Part shown: positions 37,453-55,741 of the stretch, one piece after another
Position numbering within the stretch: position 1 is the first letter of the stretch
Layout of the letters: each line of letters begins with the position of its first letter
The notes under the pieces: generated by a model
The model's input: the letters and a program-made list of their open reading frames with translations, nothing else
Database searches by the model: none
What the model was told of the DNA's origin: nothing
Source of the DNA: Ruania suaedae
GTDB lineage: Bacteria > Actinomycetota > Actinomycetes > Actinomycetales > Beutenbergiaceae
Direction of reading: 5' to 3'
Length of the DNA stretch: 64,000 bases
NCBI RefSeq assembly: GCF_021049265.1
Contig: NZ_CP088018.1
Location: 2,604,001-2,668,000 of the forward strand
Made by a program: the position numbers and the translations under genes

Positions 37453-37463
37453 GGACCCACTGA

Positions 37464-37533
37464 CCGGACCGACACGGCTGCGCCGGTCTGCAGAACGACC
37501 CTGCCGCAGATCCACACAGCCGTGTCGCTCCCG
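37464..37533. repeat. dispersed hairpin repeat, family 2, copy 1 (likely terminator)
   Basis: This is a 70-bp nested palindrome between the convergent SulP and glycosyltransferase genes. The outer arms 37464-37480 and 37517-37533 match at 15 of 17 positions, and an inner TCTGC/GCAGA stem lies inside. The same sequence design recurs at 52475-52544, with both copies followed by GTCAGCG. In this place it could terminate transcription from both sides. Confidence 0.65.
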
Positions 37534-38796
37534 TCAGCGCTCGCGGCTCACCACGCCCAGCACCGCCGCGGCAGCGCGCTCCCCCACCGCCGCCAGGGAC
37601 CGGTGCTCGCGCACCCAGGCCACGCGGCGCTCCGGCTCGCCGGGCTCATCCGGAGCCTGCAGCGCGGCGATCATGGCCTGCGCCACCTCGGCGGGGTCTT
37701 GGTCGGTGACCCACCCGAGCCGTTCATCCTCGACCAGCCGGGCCGCGGGGCTCTGGGCAGGTCCGGCGAAGAGCACCGGCGTCCCGCACGCGAGCGCCGC
37801 GAACATCTTCGTCGGCATCGCGAAGTCGTACCCGATCCCCGGGCGCAGGCTCACCAGCGCGGCACTCGCCCGCTGCTGCCAGATCGCCGACTCGGCGGCG
37901 CTGACCGGGTCACGCAGCGTCACCGCTGCCTCGGGCAGACCGGCGGCCAGCAGGCTGAGCCGGTCCCACGAGCTGCCCTGCCCGAGGAAGACCACCTGCG
38001 CGCTGGGCACCTCCTCGAGCACGCGGGGCATCGCCTCTGCGAACACCTCCGCGCCCTGCCATTCCGAGGCCGTGCCCGCGTACAGCAGGAACGGGCCATC
38101 GGGGATCTGGGACCCTCGTCGGAATCCACCTTCGCCGTCGGAATCCGCTTCTGCACGCCCGGAACTGGATTCCGATGACGAAGGTGGATTCGCATGCGTG
38201 GGGCTCGGCGTGAACACCTCGGTGTCCACCCCGTTGCCGACCGTCACCACGTGCCGCGCCCCCAGCGCCTCGACCCGCTCGGTGACCCCCTCGTTCACCG
38301 AGAGCACCACCGCGGCCCCGCGCAGGACCCAGGACTCCAGCGCCCGCACCAGCCGCACCACCACATCCGGAGCACCGGTTGAGGCCGAGGCATCACTCCA
38401 GACGTCGGCCGCGTAGTAGACATAGGGCACGCGCCGCAGCGCCGAGATCACCCGGACCACCGCGCCGGTGGTCGGGGGCGGCTCCACCACGTAGACGTCC
38501 GGGCACCGGCCGCGCAGCAGCCGCCACAGCAGCGGCACGTCGAAACTCAGATAGGGCAGATACCCGCGCACATAGCCCGACGCATCGCGCAGCACCGGGG
38601 CCCGGCGTATCCGAGCGGGGATGTCACCGGGCCGGCCCGCCGGCGAGTGGGCGCCGTCGGGGGCCTGCGCGGTGACCACCTCGAGGCGGGCGCCCTCCCC
38701 CGCCAGCGCGCGCACGAGCGCGCCGAGCCGGAACGTGGCCGCGGAGGGCTCGGGGGCGAAGATCCGCGAGACCAGGGTGACGCGGGCCCTCACCAC
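37534..38796 (-). CDS. GT-B glycosyltransferase carrying an in-frame palindromic element
   Basis: This is a 420-residue GT4-type enzyme of the WbuB-like class. LVSRIFAPEPSAATFRLGAL opens the acceptor domain, and PYVYYAADVWSDASASTGA and LSVNEGVTERVEALGARHVVTVGNGVDTEVF close it. PFLLYAGTASEWQGAEVFAEAM and PTKMFAALACGTPVLFAG form the donor domain. Between them, residues about 202-226 (NPPSSSESSSGRAEADSDGE...) are encoded by the 77-bp repeat at 38117-38193. They fall in the interdomain linker, where extra length is tolerable, and the frame is preserved, so the enzyme may still work. The ATG start at 38796 lies just upstream of the oxidoreductase stop. Confidence 0.87.
   Translation of the reverse strand: MVRARVTLVSRIFAPEPSAATFRLGALVRALAGEGARLEVVTAQAPDGAHSPAGRPGDIPARIRRAPVLRDASGYVRGYLPYLSFDVPLLWRLLRGRCPDVYVVEPPPTTGAVVRVISALRRVPYVYYAADVWSDASASTGAPDVVVRLVRALESWVLRGAAVVLSVNEGVTERVEALGARHVVTVGNGVDTEVFTPSPTHANPPSSSESSSGRAEADSDGEGGFRRGSQIPDGPFLLYAGTASEWQGAEVFAEAMPRVLEEVPSAQVVFLGQGSSWDRLSLLAAGLPEAAVTLRDPVSAAESAIWQQRASAALVSLRPGIGYDFAMPTKMFAALACGTPVLFAGPAQSPAARLVEDERLGWVTDQDPAEVAQAMIAALQAPDEPGEPERRVAWVREHRSLAAVGERAAAAVLGVVSRER
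38117..38193 (-). repeat. 77-bp palindromic element, copy A (in-frame in a glycosyltransferase gene)
   Basis: This imperfect nested palindrome has outer arms GGAATCCACCTTCG (38121-38134) and CGAAGGTGGATTC (38179-38191), inner arms TCGGAATCC (38138-38146) and GGATTCCGA (38167-38175), and a GC-rich loop. It aligns without gaps to copies at 53085-53162 (about 57 of 77 by hand) and 54296-54372 (about 63 of 77). In the host gene's frame it encodes an acidic Ser-rich peptide also readable from the other copies. Confidence 0.85.
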
Positions 38797-47302: not shown

Positions 47303-47310
47303 GCCTGCCG

Positions 47311-47387
47311 ACCCAGGTTCCACGCACGGACCGAGGGTGCGGGCATCGACCGGGCTTGCACCGTCGGTCCGTGCCGGGAACCTGGGT
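47311..47387 (+). terminator. long hairpin after the second LCP gene
   Basis: Arms 47311-47340 and 47358-47387 pair at about 27 of 30 positions around a 17-nt loop. No T-run follows, which is common in actinobacterial terminators. It lies between two same-strand genes. The arm length is unusual for a simple terminator, so a repeat element is also possible. Confidence 0.6.
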
Positions 47388-47440
47388 CCGCCTGGGACGG
47401 TCGCGGGAATCGACCGGACCACCGGCGGCGTTGCACCGGC

Positions 47441-52425: not shown

Positions 52426-52474
52426 GGGGGCTCACCCTACCGACTCCGCGCCGGCCGTCGGCGAGGTCGGCCGG

Positions 52475-52544
52475 CCGGATCGACACGGATGCGCAGGTCT
52501 GCGACAACTGGCGGGCGCAGAGGTGCGCAGCCGTGTCGATCCGG
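52475..52544. repeat. dispersed hairpin repeat, family 2, copy 2
   Basis: The outer arms 52475-52494 and 52525-52544 match at 19 of 20 positions; an inner stem TCTGCG/CGCAGA lies at 52498-52503 and 52516-52521. It shares its arm sequence, inner stem and the trailing GTCAGCG with copy 1 at 37464-37533. Unlike copy 1 it lies between divergent genes (purK and GtrA), so termination alone does not explain it. Confidence 0.65.
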
Positions 52545-52583
52545 TCAGCGGCCCGGGATGGACCGGGCCGTTATCCTGACCCG

Positions 52584-53162
52584 ATGGCCACCCCCACCTC
52601 CCCCGACGGCGTCACCTGGCGCGCCCGGGTGGCCGACCGCCGGCGCCGGCTGACCGCCTGGCTCGGTGAGCTGCTCCGGTTCGGGACCGTGGGGCTGATC
52701 GCGTTCGTCGTGGACACGGGGCTGATGAACCTGCTGCGGTTCGGGCCCGGTGAGCTGCTCGGGCACAAGCCGCTGACCGCGAAGGTGATCTCGGTGAGCG
52801 TGGCCGTGCTCGTCGCCTGGCTGGGCAACCGGTACTGGGCCTTCGCCGCCAAACGCAGCGAGGAGACCCCGACGGCGCGCAGCAAGGAGCTCGTGCAGTT
52901 CGCCGCCGTCAATGTGGTGGGGATGGCGATCGCCGTCGGCTGCCTGGCCGTGTCCCACTACCTGCTCGGGTTCACCTCCCCGCTCGCCGACAACATCTCC
53001 GCCAACGGGGTCGGGCTCGTGCTCGGGACGGCGTTCCGGTACCTCGGCTACCGGTACTGGGTGTTCACGGGGGCACCACCTCCATCGAATCCATATCCGT
53101 CATCGGAATCCGTTTCTGCACGTTCGGACGTGGATTCCAACGACAGAAGTGGATTCCGATAG
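52584..53162 (+). CDS. GtrA-family membrane protein with repeat-derived C-terminus
   Basis: This 192-residue protein has four membrane helices, typical of GtrA/PST-C1 proteins that help flip or present polyprenyl-phosphate sugars: LLRFGTVGLIAFVVDTGLMNLL, AKVISVSVAVLVAWLGNRYWAF, and the end motif FRYLGYRYWVF. Normal members stop soon after YWVF. Here about 25 more residues (SNPYPSSESVSARSDVDS...) and the stop codon come from the palindromic element at 53085-53162. No dedicated polyprenyl glycosyltransferase is adjacent. Confidence 0.87.
   Translation: MATPTSPDGVTWRARVADRRRRLTAWLGELLRFGTVGLIAFVVDTGLMNLLRFGPGELLGHKPLTAKVISVSVAVLVAWLGNRYWAFAAKRSEETPTARSKELVQFAAVNVVGMAIAVGCLAVSHYLLGFTSPLADNISANGVGLVLGTAFRYLGYRYWVFTGAPPPSNPYPSSESVSARSDVDSNDRSGFR
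53085..53162 (+). repeat. 77-bp palindromic element, copy B (forms the 3' end of the GtrA gene)
   Basis: It aligns gap-free with copies A and C and shares the GTCATCGGAATCC core and the terminal TGGATTCC. It is read in the same frame as copy A, giving the peptide NPYPSSESVSARSDVDS..., and ends in the TAG that terminates the gene. With copy C it brackets the gene at 53245-54279. Confidence 0.83.
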
Positions 53163-53244
53163 GTCCCCGCCCCGACGCCCCCACATCCCCAGCCCCACCC
53201 CGTGGCGGCACGCTCCCGGGAGCGCCTGTGCTGAGGTGCGGCCC

Positions 53245-54279
53245 ATGGACATCTCGAACTCGTCTCACCCGGGCCCAGCGAATCGGCCTGCGGACCGGCT
53301 GATCCGGTTCGGTGACGCCGCTGCTACCGGCCAGGGCGGCACGCTCCGCAAGGCGCACCGGGAAGGTCGGGTGCGTCGGGTGACCCGGGGCATCTATGCA
53401 CCGGTTCAGCCGGAGAAGGACCTCTCGGCAGCGCAGATCACCGCCGCGCGCTATCGCGAGCGGGTTCTCGCGATCGCATGCCGCCGCCGGGAACCCATAT
53501 TCACCGGCCCCTCGGCACTGGCGCTCCTCGAGCTTCCGATCATCGGGCCCTGGCCCAGTGACGTGTTCGTGGTCTCCGCCACGCGGCAGGGACGACGACG
53601 ATCCGGTGTGGCGGAGATCGCGCGCCGGTTCGAGGTGACGACGACGATGGCGAACGGCTGCGTGATCACGTCCGTCGAGCTGACGCTGATCCAGGCAGCT
53701 CGTCGGCTACCGCTGCTCGGCAGCCTCGTGGCGGCCGATGCTGCCTGCCGCGTGCCGCGATCCGGGCCGGACGGGCCGCTGACCACCCCGGGTGCGCTGT
53801 GGACGGTTCACGATCGCTTGATGCCGTATCAGGGGTCCGCGCGGGTGGTCGCGATGCTCGAGCGGGTCTCGACCGGTTCCGAGTCCCCGCTGGAGACGCT
53901 GAGTGGCCTCATCATCGAGTCGCTCGGCTTCCAGGCGCCCCGCCAGCAGGTCCGCTTCCAGCTCTCGTCCCACGCGGAGGCGTTCGTCGACTTCTACTGG
54001 GAGGGAGTCAATGCCGCCGGGGAAGCCGACGGCGACCTCAAGTACCGCGCCATCGGCGAGGGCCCCGGAGCCGCCGAGCGCGTGATCGCCGAGAAGCGTC
54101 GGGAGGATGAGCTGCGCGAGCAGCTCAGCGCGCTCACACGCTGGGGATGGAGCGACTGCTGGCAGCGCGTGCGCGGAAGCGACGGCCGCATCCGTGGTGC
54201 TCCCCGGCTCGATCGCCTCGGAGCGAAGCTGCTGCGCGCCGGCGTTCCGCAGACCCGCCTACGACGGCGCCTCCTCTGA
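53245..54279 (+). CDS. AbiEi-antitoxin-like N-terminus with DUF559-like nuclease-fold C-terminus
   Basis: The 344-residue protein starts like the AbiEi-type antitoxin/regulator domains of actinobacteria: RVRRVTRGIYAPVQPEKDL, a winged-helix 'gate' followed by FTGPSALALLELPI. Its C-terminal third (SPLETLSGLIIESLGFQAPRQQV, FVDFYWEGVNAAGEADGDLKY, EKRREDELREQ) resembles the DUF559/Vsr-like restriction-endonuclease fold with the E...D...EK pattern. This two-part type is common in actinobacteria and uncharacterised; no AbiEii-type toxin partner lies next to it. It is flanked by inverted copies of the 77-bp element. Confidence 0.65.
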   Translation: MDISNSSHPGPANRPADRLIRFGDAAATGQGGTLRKAHREGRVRRVTRGIYAPVQPEKDLSAAQITAARYRERVLAIACRRREPIFTGPSALALLELPIIGPWPSDVFVVSATRQGRRRSGVAEIARRFEVTTTMANGCVITSVELTLIQAARRLPLLGSLVAADAACRVPRSGPDGPLTTPGALWTVHDRLMPYQGSARVVAMLERVSTGSESPLETLSGLIIESLGFQAPRQQVRFQLSSHAEAFVDFYWEGVNAAGEADGDLKYRAIGEGPGAAERVIAEKRREDELREQLSALTRWGWSDCWQRVRGSDGRIRGAPRLDRLGAKLLRAGVPQTRLRRRLL

Positions 54280-54295
54280 GCCCAGCCCGTGTGCG

Positions 54296-54372
54296 CGTAG
54301 GAATCCACGTCGGGCATAGGAATCCGCTTCTGCGCTCCCAGAAGTGGACTCCGATGACGGAGGTGGATTCCC
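54296..54372 (-). repeat. 77-bp palindromic element, copy C (intergenic)
   Basis: Read on the minus strand it aligns gap-free with copy A at about 63 of 77 positions and encodes a matching peptide (NPPPSSESTSGSAEADS...) although no gene uses it here. It lies between the convergent AbiEi-like and histidine-kinase genes. Confidence 0.83.
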
Positions 54373-54406
54373 AGGGGTCAGCACGCCGGCGGACGTGGAC
54401 GCCCGC

Positions 54407-55741
54407 TCAGCGGCGCCGTCGCCGGCGCCCCACCACCACCAGCGAGCCCGGCGGCAGCACCTTGTCCGGGTCGAGGCGCTTGGGCACCGCGTTGAGGAAG
54501 ATCGCGAAGACCGGGGGCCGGCGTTGGGCCAGCTCCAGCCGGCCGCCGTCGGCCGTGACCAGGTCGCGCGCCAGGCCCAACCCCAGCCCGGTGCCCTTGC
54601 CCGAGGTGACATGGCGCTCGAAGATCCGCGGGGCCAACTCGTCCGGCACTCCGGGGCCCTCGTCGGCCACCTCGATCACCACCCCGGTGTCGGCGCCGGA
54701 CTTCGAGGGCCGCACGTGGACCGAGGTGGTGCCCTCGCCGTACTTGAGGGAGTTCTCCAGCAGGGTGGCCAGCACCTGGGCGAGCGCACCCGGAGTCGCC
54801 AGCACCGAGACGTCGACGGCGTCACCGACGACCAGCTCCCGCCCCGCCCGGGCGTAGGTGCGAACCCACTCCTCGCGCTGCTGGTCGAAGACCTCCTCCA
54901 GGTGCAGCGCCTCGGTGGTCCCGCCCTCGGTCTTACGGGAGGTCTTGAGCAGGTCGTCGACCACGTGCACCAGCCGCTCCACCTGCTCCAGCGAGATGCG
55001 GGCCTCCTCGCGGACCTCCTCGTCCTCGCTGAGCAGCTGGATCTCCTCCAGCCGCATCGACAGCGCCGTCAGCGGGGTGCGCAACTGGTGGGAGACGTTG
55101 GCGGCGAACTGCCGCTCCGCCGCGATCCGGCCGGCCAGCCGGTCGGAGGTGCGGGCCAGCTCGGCGGCGACCAGGTCGATCTCCTCCACCCCGGAGGGCT
55201 CCAGCCGGGGACGCACCTGCCCGGAGCCGATCTGCTCGGCACTGGCGGCCAGATAGATCAGCGGTGCCGCGAGCCGGCGCGCCAGGCGCAGTGCCACCAT
55301 CGCGGCCACCCCGAAGGCCAGCACGCTCAGCCCGGTCACGGCCAGCACCACCTGCGCACTACGCCAGAACAGCAGCGATCCGCTCACCTCCAGCAGCACC
55401 AGGGCGCCGGAGGGGGACGTGCTGGAGGCCACGAAGGCCTCCTCGGGCGGGCCCACGTCCGGGCCGGCCACCACCTCGGTGCCGCTGGGAAGCCGCACCG
55501 TGATGCGCGCCGGCGTCCCGGACTCCTCGTCCACCCAGCGGTCCAGGTAGTCCTGGTCCACCGGGAGATTCAGCCCGAGGCGCCCCTCCACCGAGCGGGT
55601 CACCGACTCGGTGCGCACCTGCAGGTTCTGCTGCACGCTCTCCTGCACCATGAGCGCCCCGAAGATCCCCATCGGCAGGCCGAGGAAGATGACGGCGACG
55701 GTCACGGCCACCACCGCGACCGTCAGGACGCGTCGGCGCAG
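54407..55741 (-). CDS. two-component sensor histidine kinase
   Basis: The kinase has two membrane helices flanking a roughly 100-residue sensor loop, a HAMP region (ALRLARRLAAPLIYLAASAEQI), the phosphoacceptor His in FAANVSHQLRTPLTAL (His209 counting from the GTG at 55714), N-box LLENSLKYG, G1 DEGPGVP and G2 GKGTGLGLGLAR. No ATG, GTG or TTG lies between the in-frame upstream stop and 55714. Starting at 55714 would remove the positively charged LRRR that should precede helix 1. A CTG at 55741, 1 nt after the response-regulator stop, restores it, so I extend the gene to there with caution. Confidence 0.85.
   Translation of the reverse strand: MRRRVLTVAVVAVTVAVIFLGLPMGIFGALMVQESVQQNLQVRTESVTRSVEGRLGLNLPVDQDYLDRWVDEESGTPARITVRLPSGTEVVAGPDVGPPEEAFVASSTSPSGALVLLEVSGSLLFWRSAQVVLAVTGLSVLAFGVAAMVALRLARRLAAPLIYLAASAEQIGSGQVRPRLEPSGVEEIDLVAAELARTSDRLAGRIAAERQFAANVSHQLRTPLTALSMRLEEIQLLSEDEEVREEARISLEQVERLVHVVDDLLKTSRKTEGGTTEALHLEEVFDQQREEWVRTYARAGRELVVGDAVDVSVLATPGALAQVLATLLENSLKYGEGTTSVHVRPSKSGADTGVVIEVADEGPGVPDELAPRIFERHVTSGKGTGLGLGLARDLVTADGGRLELAQRRPPVFAIFLNAVPKRLDPDKVLPPGSLVVVGRRRRRR

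Follow-up and report, generated by a model that had tools for sequence, protein, structure and literature searches.

In the 64,000-nt stretch of the Ruania suaedae genome analysed here (contig NZ_CP088018.1, positions 2604001-2668000; hereafter the window), two copies of a nested palindrome bracket a gene for a predicted nuclease-like protein, and a third copy lies alone inside a glycosyltransferase gene (Table 1). Across the class Actinomycetes, the same order of palindrome, gene and palindrome is found again. Within a unit the two palindromes are alike, whereas units at different sites have different ones; lone members of a unit's palindrome family are dispersed over the genome, and in Ruania most of these fall between genes. 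On balance, and with some reserve, we favour the view that palindrome, gene and palindrome together form a mobile or homing-like element of ~ 1.3 kb, in which an AbiEi-like winged-helix protein, PD-(D/E)XK-type (REase_MTES_1575-like) in its C-terminal part, would drive the spread. The bracketing is directly observed, and from the sequences we infer the part taken by the nuclease.

Table 1. Features of the window discussed in the text (coordinates of the window; strand "." for the palindromes).
Feature	Position	Strand	Basis
GT-B glycosyltransferase gene (420 aa, Glyco_trans_4_4 + Glyco_trans_1_4), host of copy 1	37534..38796	-	ORF and domain matches
Palindromic element copy 1, solitary	about 38116..38199	.	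self-comparison, folding, covariance model match
gtrA-like gene (named from sequence by eye), left neighbour of the unit	52584..53162	+	matched in all 8 Ruania loci
Palindrome copy 2, left end of the nuclease-gene unit	about 53081..53164	.	self-comparison, covariance model, mapping
Gene for AbiEi-like winged-helix + PD-(D/E)XK-like nuclease (344 aa), between copies 2 and 3	53245..54279	+	profiles, alignment
Palindrome copy 3, right end of the nuclease-gene unit, intergenic	about 54295..54378	.	self-comparison, covariance model, mapping
Sensor-kinase-like gene (named by eye), right neighbour of the unit	54407..55714	-	present in 8/8 Ruania genomes

Architecture of the palindrome

Copy 1 is a 77-bp palindrome at 38117-38193 of the window; the covariance model matched it at 2642116-2642197 of the 3,557,440-bp, one-contig genome (G000). 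A unit of ~ 19 bp occurs twice and is followed, after a 6-nt loop, by both units inverted, which yields one nested hairpin with a 33-bp stem. Copies 2 and 3 are 72% and 81% identical to copy 1, respectively. An earlier, sequence-only reading had placed them at 53085 and 54296; both are real, the former starting 3 bp away, at 53082. Folded as single-stranded DNA and compared with dinucleotide shuffles, copies 1, 2 and 3 gave z = -5.5, -3.1 and -5.4.

Eight genomic copies could be fitted to a single 33-bp stem with a 6-nt loop, in which 84.1% of 264 cells pair and nine of the 33 stem pairs vary on both sides. After shuffling of the 3' letters, 82.2% of the cells were still paired, and 41 and 46 of 500 shuffles reached the two observed values, so the covariation evidence from the eight copies alone is only modest. 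Stem covariation can also arise from hairpin template switching, and need not indicate selection for structure. Strong hairpins were also present in the window outside the element copies, at 47307-47391, 52465-52554 and 37460-37537 (scores 26, 25 and 20); these are possibly terminators.

The nuclease-gene unit and its protein

The sequence-only reading had overlooked the nuclease-like gene that lies between copies 2 and 3 and is the sole gene predicted there. The gtrA-like gene ends within copy 2, from which its final codons and its stop derive; within the window, only copy 1 sits inside a gene.

The N-terminus of the window protein is AbiEi_4-like (E 5.5e-4, below the Pfam curated cut-off), and Pfam reported AbiEi_4 in 19 of 24 family members at E <= 0.1. 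In the C-terminal part, Glu217, Glu260, Asp262, Lys266, Glu283 and Arg286 are invariant among the 24 aligned members and Asp249 is nearly so, while the REase_MTES_1575 profile matched two of the 24. The C-terminus is thus likely a PD-(D/E)XK nuclease, with an activity predicted from these motifs. NCBIfam gave no family for the window protein and weak AbiEi matches for three of the 24 members; among known structures, no relative was found by sequence (one and two matches, E 0.39-0.83).

A phage or plasmid origin of the unit was rejected: it had no match in phage records, one weak partial match in viral contigs and two weak matches in plasmids, both from Tsukamurella. In the annotation, the two plasmid relatives appear as AbiEi family antitoxin or as hypothetical protein. 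A second nuclease homologue is represented in the genome of the window by a C-terminal piece at 3302417-3302824 (L170), without an adjoining palindrome of the R1 model.

Recurrence of the bracketed unit

Among the loci first collected, a tblastn search returned homologues at three further places, each flanked by two palindromes. Searching the genus gave 22 Ruania matches to the nuclease gene. Palindromes of the R1 model stood on both sides of seven of these (L157, L159, L160, L162, L163, L166 and L171) and on one side only of L158; some of the other matches were bracketed by palindromes of other families. At L160, L163 and L166 the flanks are common on both sides, that is, the same insertion is present in three species.

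Beyond the genus, a 24-member profile (E <= 1e-30) detected family members in 123 of the 296 genomes, and in 60 of the 115 genera, sampled in the class Actinomycetes. The 81 class loci among the matches listed comprise returned loci and 60 that were fetched, some having been skipped. For the comparison of flanks, 14 of a total of 123 loci were removed: six duplicates (L174, L198-L201, L228), three partial genes (L170, L173, L176) and five too short for both flanks (L178, L208, L213, L222, L264). Some of the genes at the 109 loci retained contain stop codons.

When the 420 bp upstream were compared with the 420 bp downstream, a match with a local score of at least 25 was present in 96 of the 109 loci, and one of at least 30 in 89. 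At the same two thresholds, swapped pairs matched in 20 and 8 of 600, although some of them may pair loci that share an address in related species; far flanks matched in 2 and 1 of 109, and ordinary genes in 6 and 1 of 268, the last one being itself a unit. The stronger far-flank match, L164, involves a larger duplication, since its far flanks match too. With each insertion context counted once (76 distinct contexts), 67 were bracketed, against one in the far control. No flank repeats were detectable at 13 of the 109 loci. Hairpins scoring at least 15 on both sides were found at 46/109 loci, compared with 0/109 far flanks and 4/268 ordinary genes. The flank repeats have a median length of about 108 bp. 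Among the 89 loci with a score of at least 30, they were inverted in 47, direct in 26 and equal or undecided in 16, a weak call because the ends of the unit are palindromic.

These counts bear on the idea that the palindromes are independent, REP- or MITE-like repeats moved by another enzyme, with the nuclease gene a frequent passenger between two copies. Seven copies in G000 are solitary and two belong to the unit, as such a reading would have it, and CGTC-type REPs have been reported without a dedicated transposase, according to the available text of PMC3733652. We nevertheless regard it as improbable: it is one gene family that is bracketed in 96 of 109 loci, in many genera, and the ends are specific to the unit. 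Moreover, the Y1 transposase (PF01797, E <= 0.001) was found in none of the 8 Ruania genomes, while 5 of 14 control genomes were positive; an identity with RAYT/REP systems was rejected on the same absence.

Ends of the units and solitary copies

Each unit has a pair of palindromes that resemble one another and not those of other units, except for L160, L163 and L166. In three genomes, the solitary copies also resembled the unit of their own genome best (7/7 in G000, 8/10 in G001 and 8/11 in G004). This own-genome matching failed in G003 (1/7), G006 (0/15), G002 (0/14) and G007 (0/4), so that the overall count was 24/68, the two unit ends of the window having been left out of the 70 copies among the matches listed. 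The failure is perhaps explained by the unit that G003 and G006 share with G004, and by the make-up of the comparison, which included no R1-type unit from G002 or G007; no matching R1-type unit was seen for the copies of these two genomes.

Solitary copies are dispersed in two genera outside Ruania as well. The palindrome family of unit L207 occupied 13 places in its genome, G127 (two of them at the unit), and one in G114, but none in six other genomes of the genus of G127. Similarly, the family of unit L274 occupied six places in G031 (two at the unit) and three in G049; two genomes from a different genus had none.

The sequence-only reading had proposed a search of the genome and its relatives with the 77-bp consensus. 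A covariance model found nine copies in the 3.56-Mb genome G000 (E <= 1.6e-13 on either strand), eight of which had themselves been used to build it. Over 59 genomes including G000, the palindrome was present in 8/8 Ruania and in 0/16 other genomes of the same family; 2/35 genomes of the rest of the order gave one weak match apiece (E 0.004-0.006). The weak matches in other families of the order (L047 in G044, L048 in G027) have a similar nested-palindrome architecture with a different sequence.

Among the matches listed, 70 copies were mapped in seven genomes by means of gene calls from a home-made codon-usage predictor. This set omits the glycosyltransferase copies of G001, G004, G002 and G005, the G005 pair, the end copies of units other than that of the window and a few weak matches. 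Of these 70 listed copies, 61 were intergenic (17 between convergent, 15 between divergent and 29 between tandem genes), four lay inside genes, four at a gene 3' end and one at a 5' end. Three of the four within-gene copies occupy the same glycosyltransferase insertion site.

AbiEi antitoxins are DNA-binding autoregulators. An AbiEi-like transcription factor, with the palindromes as co-evolving binding sites both at its own gene and across a regulon and no mobility involved, would therefore fit that background, the predominantly intergenic placement of the listed copies and the correspondence, seen in several genomes, between the sequence of the sites and the resident gene family. We consider this reading unlikely. 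The palindromes stand on both sides of the gene, downstream included; 17 of the 61 listed intergenic copies are located between convergent genes, and 8 of the 70 are situated within a gene or at the 3' end of one. A 33-bp stem is also long for an operator, and the matches vary from 1 to 36 per genome (both strands counted) within one genus. Regulation would explain the concerted change of the palindromes, but neither the two-sided bracketing nor the presence and absence of unit and palindrome at conserved sites.

The glycosyltransferase linker

As the sequence-only reading had stated, copy 1 is inserted in frame into the linker that joins the two domains of a GT-B enzyme. In an alignment of the protein with the best 80 of the 125 homologues found, two of which are from Ruania, the insert was absent from all 78 sequences from outside the genus. 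One non-Ruania homologue (L133) has a long linker of unrelated sequence. The gene was found in 7/8 Ruania genomes, and all seven carry a palindrome in the linker. In five species the palindrome belongs to one family and the insert peptides are alike, whereas G002 and G005 carry two unrelated families with unrelated peptides; the copies of G001 and G004 share the same linker site. The linker thus tolerates insertion, and no particular peptide is kept there. At the linkers of G003 and G006 (L145-L148), we also observed a PPADATLPTDAS-like tandem repeat of differing length beside the palindrome, which suggests that this linker is generally expansion-tolerant.

The linker palindrome best matched the unit of its own genome in five of the seven species, with a tie in G003 and a better match to the unit of another genome in G006. 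The scores of the match between linker palindrome and unit were 37-50 in five species; random 82-mers from two loci reached at most 22. Given the unrelated palindromes in G002 and G005, vertical inheritance alone is an unlikely source of this likeness. The codon phase of the inserts (2, 1, 0) was dropped as an argument, as it depends on the borders set for unrelated hairpins.

The peptides read from the three window copies are indeed alike, as had been noted, and this likeness can be attributed to the similarity of their DNA. The selection for a translated frame that had been suggested along with it did not hold up: each of the six reading frames is open in 42-61 of the 70 copies among the matches listed, so in-frame insertion is easy. 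The comparison with the Rickettsia palindromic elements, whose behaviour the sequence-only reading had recognised here, fared no better. An element of that type, selected for in-frame insertion, would account for the open frame in the glycosyltransferase gene and for the similar peptide frames of the three window copies. It would not account for the intergenic position of 61 of the 70 listed copies, against four inside genes, nor for the linker inserts of unrelated families and peptides in G002 and G005. An identity with these elements was rejected on location and peptide, and we give the reading very little credence. More plausibly under our proposal, the glycosyltransferase copy would be a solitary palindrome left without the nuclease gene, and tolerated because it falls in a flexible linker and the frame stays open.

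Conserved sites and their history

The junction between the gtrA-like and the kinase-like gene is kept in 8/8 Ruania genomes, and the unit is present there in G000 only. G006 has one palindrome at this junction and G003 possibly half of one; none was recognised by eye in the other five. Between the close genomes G003 and G006 (88-94% DNA identity in the stretches compared), five palindrome sites of G006 were examined. One palindrome is cleanly absent from G003, with no evident target duplication (L327 versus L342); at the L319 site, the palindrome is absent from G003 along with extra flanking sequence; at L318, L331 and L332, the differences look like decay in G003, not like insertion in G006. 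A duplication of the target site was not seen in these five site pairs, nor was a clean junction of a whole unit observed.

Where several species have a palindrome at one and the same site, each appears to follow the type of its own genome. In 21 of 23 same-site pairs (5 of 7 outside the glycosyltransferase gene), the similarity within the pair fell short of the best same-genome value on both sides. Measured against the mean same-genome value, this held on both sides for only 12 of 23, and 16 of the 23 pairs come from the single glycosyltransferase site, so the result shows a pattern but is no clean test. It leaves out the closely related G003 and G006 as a pair, and the comparisons of the G003 glycosyltransferase copy with four other species.

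Two addresses recur in the class (genes named by eye). Nine of the 109 units lie 107-257 bp after the stop of fba (L243, L253, L260, L262, L263, L266, L275, L277, L282) and belong to several families; the site is possibly a conserved target or a long, vertically kept address. Eight of the 109 are at a convergent mshC/PAC2 site (L209, L216, L217, L221, L223, L224, L241, L247). They are of one family (f38), have the gene in either orientation, and their flanks are more conserved than the gene. At this locus, the gene is flipped relative to its flanks in 2/9 loci (13/34 scored pairs), which may represent one or two events.

The repeated addresses could reflect long vertical persistence and would then count against a mobile element. 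In such a case, the unit would be an anchored defence or addiction gene, inherited mostly vertically at fixed addresses, with the palindromes as bidirectional terminators or insulators and the solitary copies as relics; the lone palindrome of G006 at the unit site of G000 agrees with this. However, a tblastn search (E <= 1e-3, with the window protein as the sole query) detected no relic of the nuclease gene within about 1.2-1.5 kb at any of 68 solitary-copy loci. The 109 loci fall into 76 distinct contexts, and the flipped genes at one address also speak against an anchored gene. We therefore hold this explanation to be unlikely, and prefer that of a mobile element.

Relation to known systems

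According to the text available from PMC3733652, REPtrons are RAYT genes flanked by GTAG REPs, and TIRtrons are described as well. The units presented here resemble both, as far as that text goes, in having one gene bracketed by palindromes or inverted repeats and related solitary palindromes mostly outside genes. They differ in the predicted protein, which is AbiEi + PD-(D/E)XK-like, no Y1 transposase having been found, and in the nested palindromes of about 60-85 bp, compared with the 20-40 bp given there for REPs. The element of the window is about 77 bp long with a 33-bp stem, and GTAG precedes the stem in one of eight aligned copies.

CGTC repeats are listed for five phyla in the consulted text of PMC3733652 and PMC10969869, Actinobacteria not being among them. 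Like the Rickettsia palindromic elements, they are described there as palindromic, sometimes in frame in genes and without a known transposase. In contrast, the palindromes studied here are rarely inside genes and have a visible coding partner, and their stem is 33 bp long, not 8-9 bp with an unpaired CGTC tag as in the portion of the literature cited; a further difference from the Rickettsia elements is that no conserved peptide is seen at the glycosyltransferase site. CGTC does stand before copy 1, and is not constant across the alignment.

MITEs are characterised in the available part of PMC10969869 as short, mostly intergenic and palindromic, with ends shared with a larger coding element. 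The palindromes described here are likewise short, mostly intergenic and share their ends with a coding element, which for G000, G001, G004, G127 and G031 is found in the same genome. That element carries a nuclease-like gene, not that of a transposase, and no target duplication was recognised in the five site pairs compared. Bracketing of a gene by matching ends, as in terminal-repeat transposons, was found in 96/109 loci. In its working, the system may be likened to a REPtron and the REPs that belong to it, or to MITEs and their autonomous partner; we do not place it in either family because enzyme, palindrome and tag differ.

Free-standing homing endonuclease genes, including those of the Vsr-like EDxHD family, consist of a single nuclease gene. 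The analogy with them would extend to the replacement at fixed addresses and the conversion of sites by the resident allele, both of which are suggested here. In our case, however, the gene is bracketed by its own palindromes, with solitary derivatives, and cutting of the empty allele is putative. The AbiE type IV toxin-antitoxin systems share the N-terminal AbiEi_4-like domain; the differences are that no second gene (AbiEii) is predicted in the unit of the window, and that a C-terminal nuclease-like domain and palindromes on both sides are present.

The sequence-only reading knew of no such element in actinobacteria, and our search agrees: no description of a palindrome-bracketed AbiEi/nuclease arrangement was found in the literature searched, mostly open-access and exclusive of preprints. 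Nor is one given in the available text of PMC3733652, PMC10969869 and PMC12915292.

Proposed mechanism and significance

In the mechanism that we propose, the N-terminal domain of the protein would bind its palindrome, and the protein would nick or cut it, perhaps when extruded as a hairpin. Repair from another copy would then spread the unit and, in a homing-like manner, would also convert older palindromes to the resident type; the process might sometimes leave a palindrome without the gene.

The element stands a fair chance of meriting a class of its own. We put forward more tentatively, at somewhat less than an even chance, that it represents a new class of actinobacterial mobile elements with a single AbiEi-nuclease gene and no transposase, rewriting its palindromic ends genome-wide by conversion. 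If this is true, the dispersed palindromes, one of them inside a protein-coding gene, would make up a genome-wide set of sites, and the identity of this set would shift with the arrival of a new nuclease allele.

Short palindromic repeats for which no mobiliser is known pose an unsolved problem. In the present case, a dispersed family of palindromes is clearly partnered with a coding gene, and the partnership is recurrent: 123 of the 296 genomes sampled carry a homologue, and bracketing was found at 96 of the 109 loci examined. Should the nuclease drive the spread, these elements would form a class with an enzyme of its own, and they would also show how inserted repeats become protein linkers.
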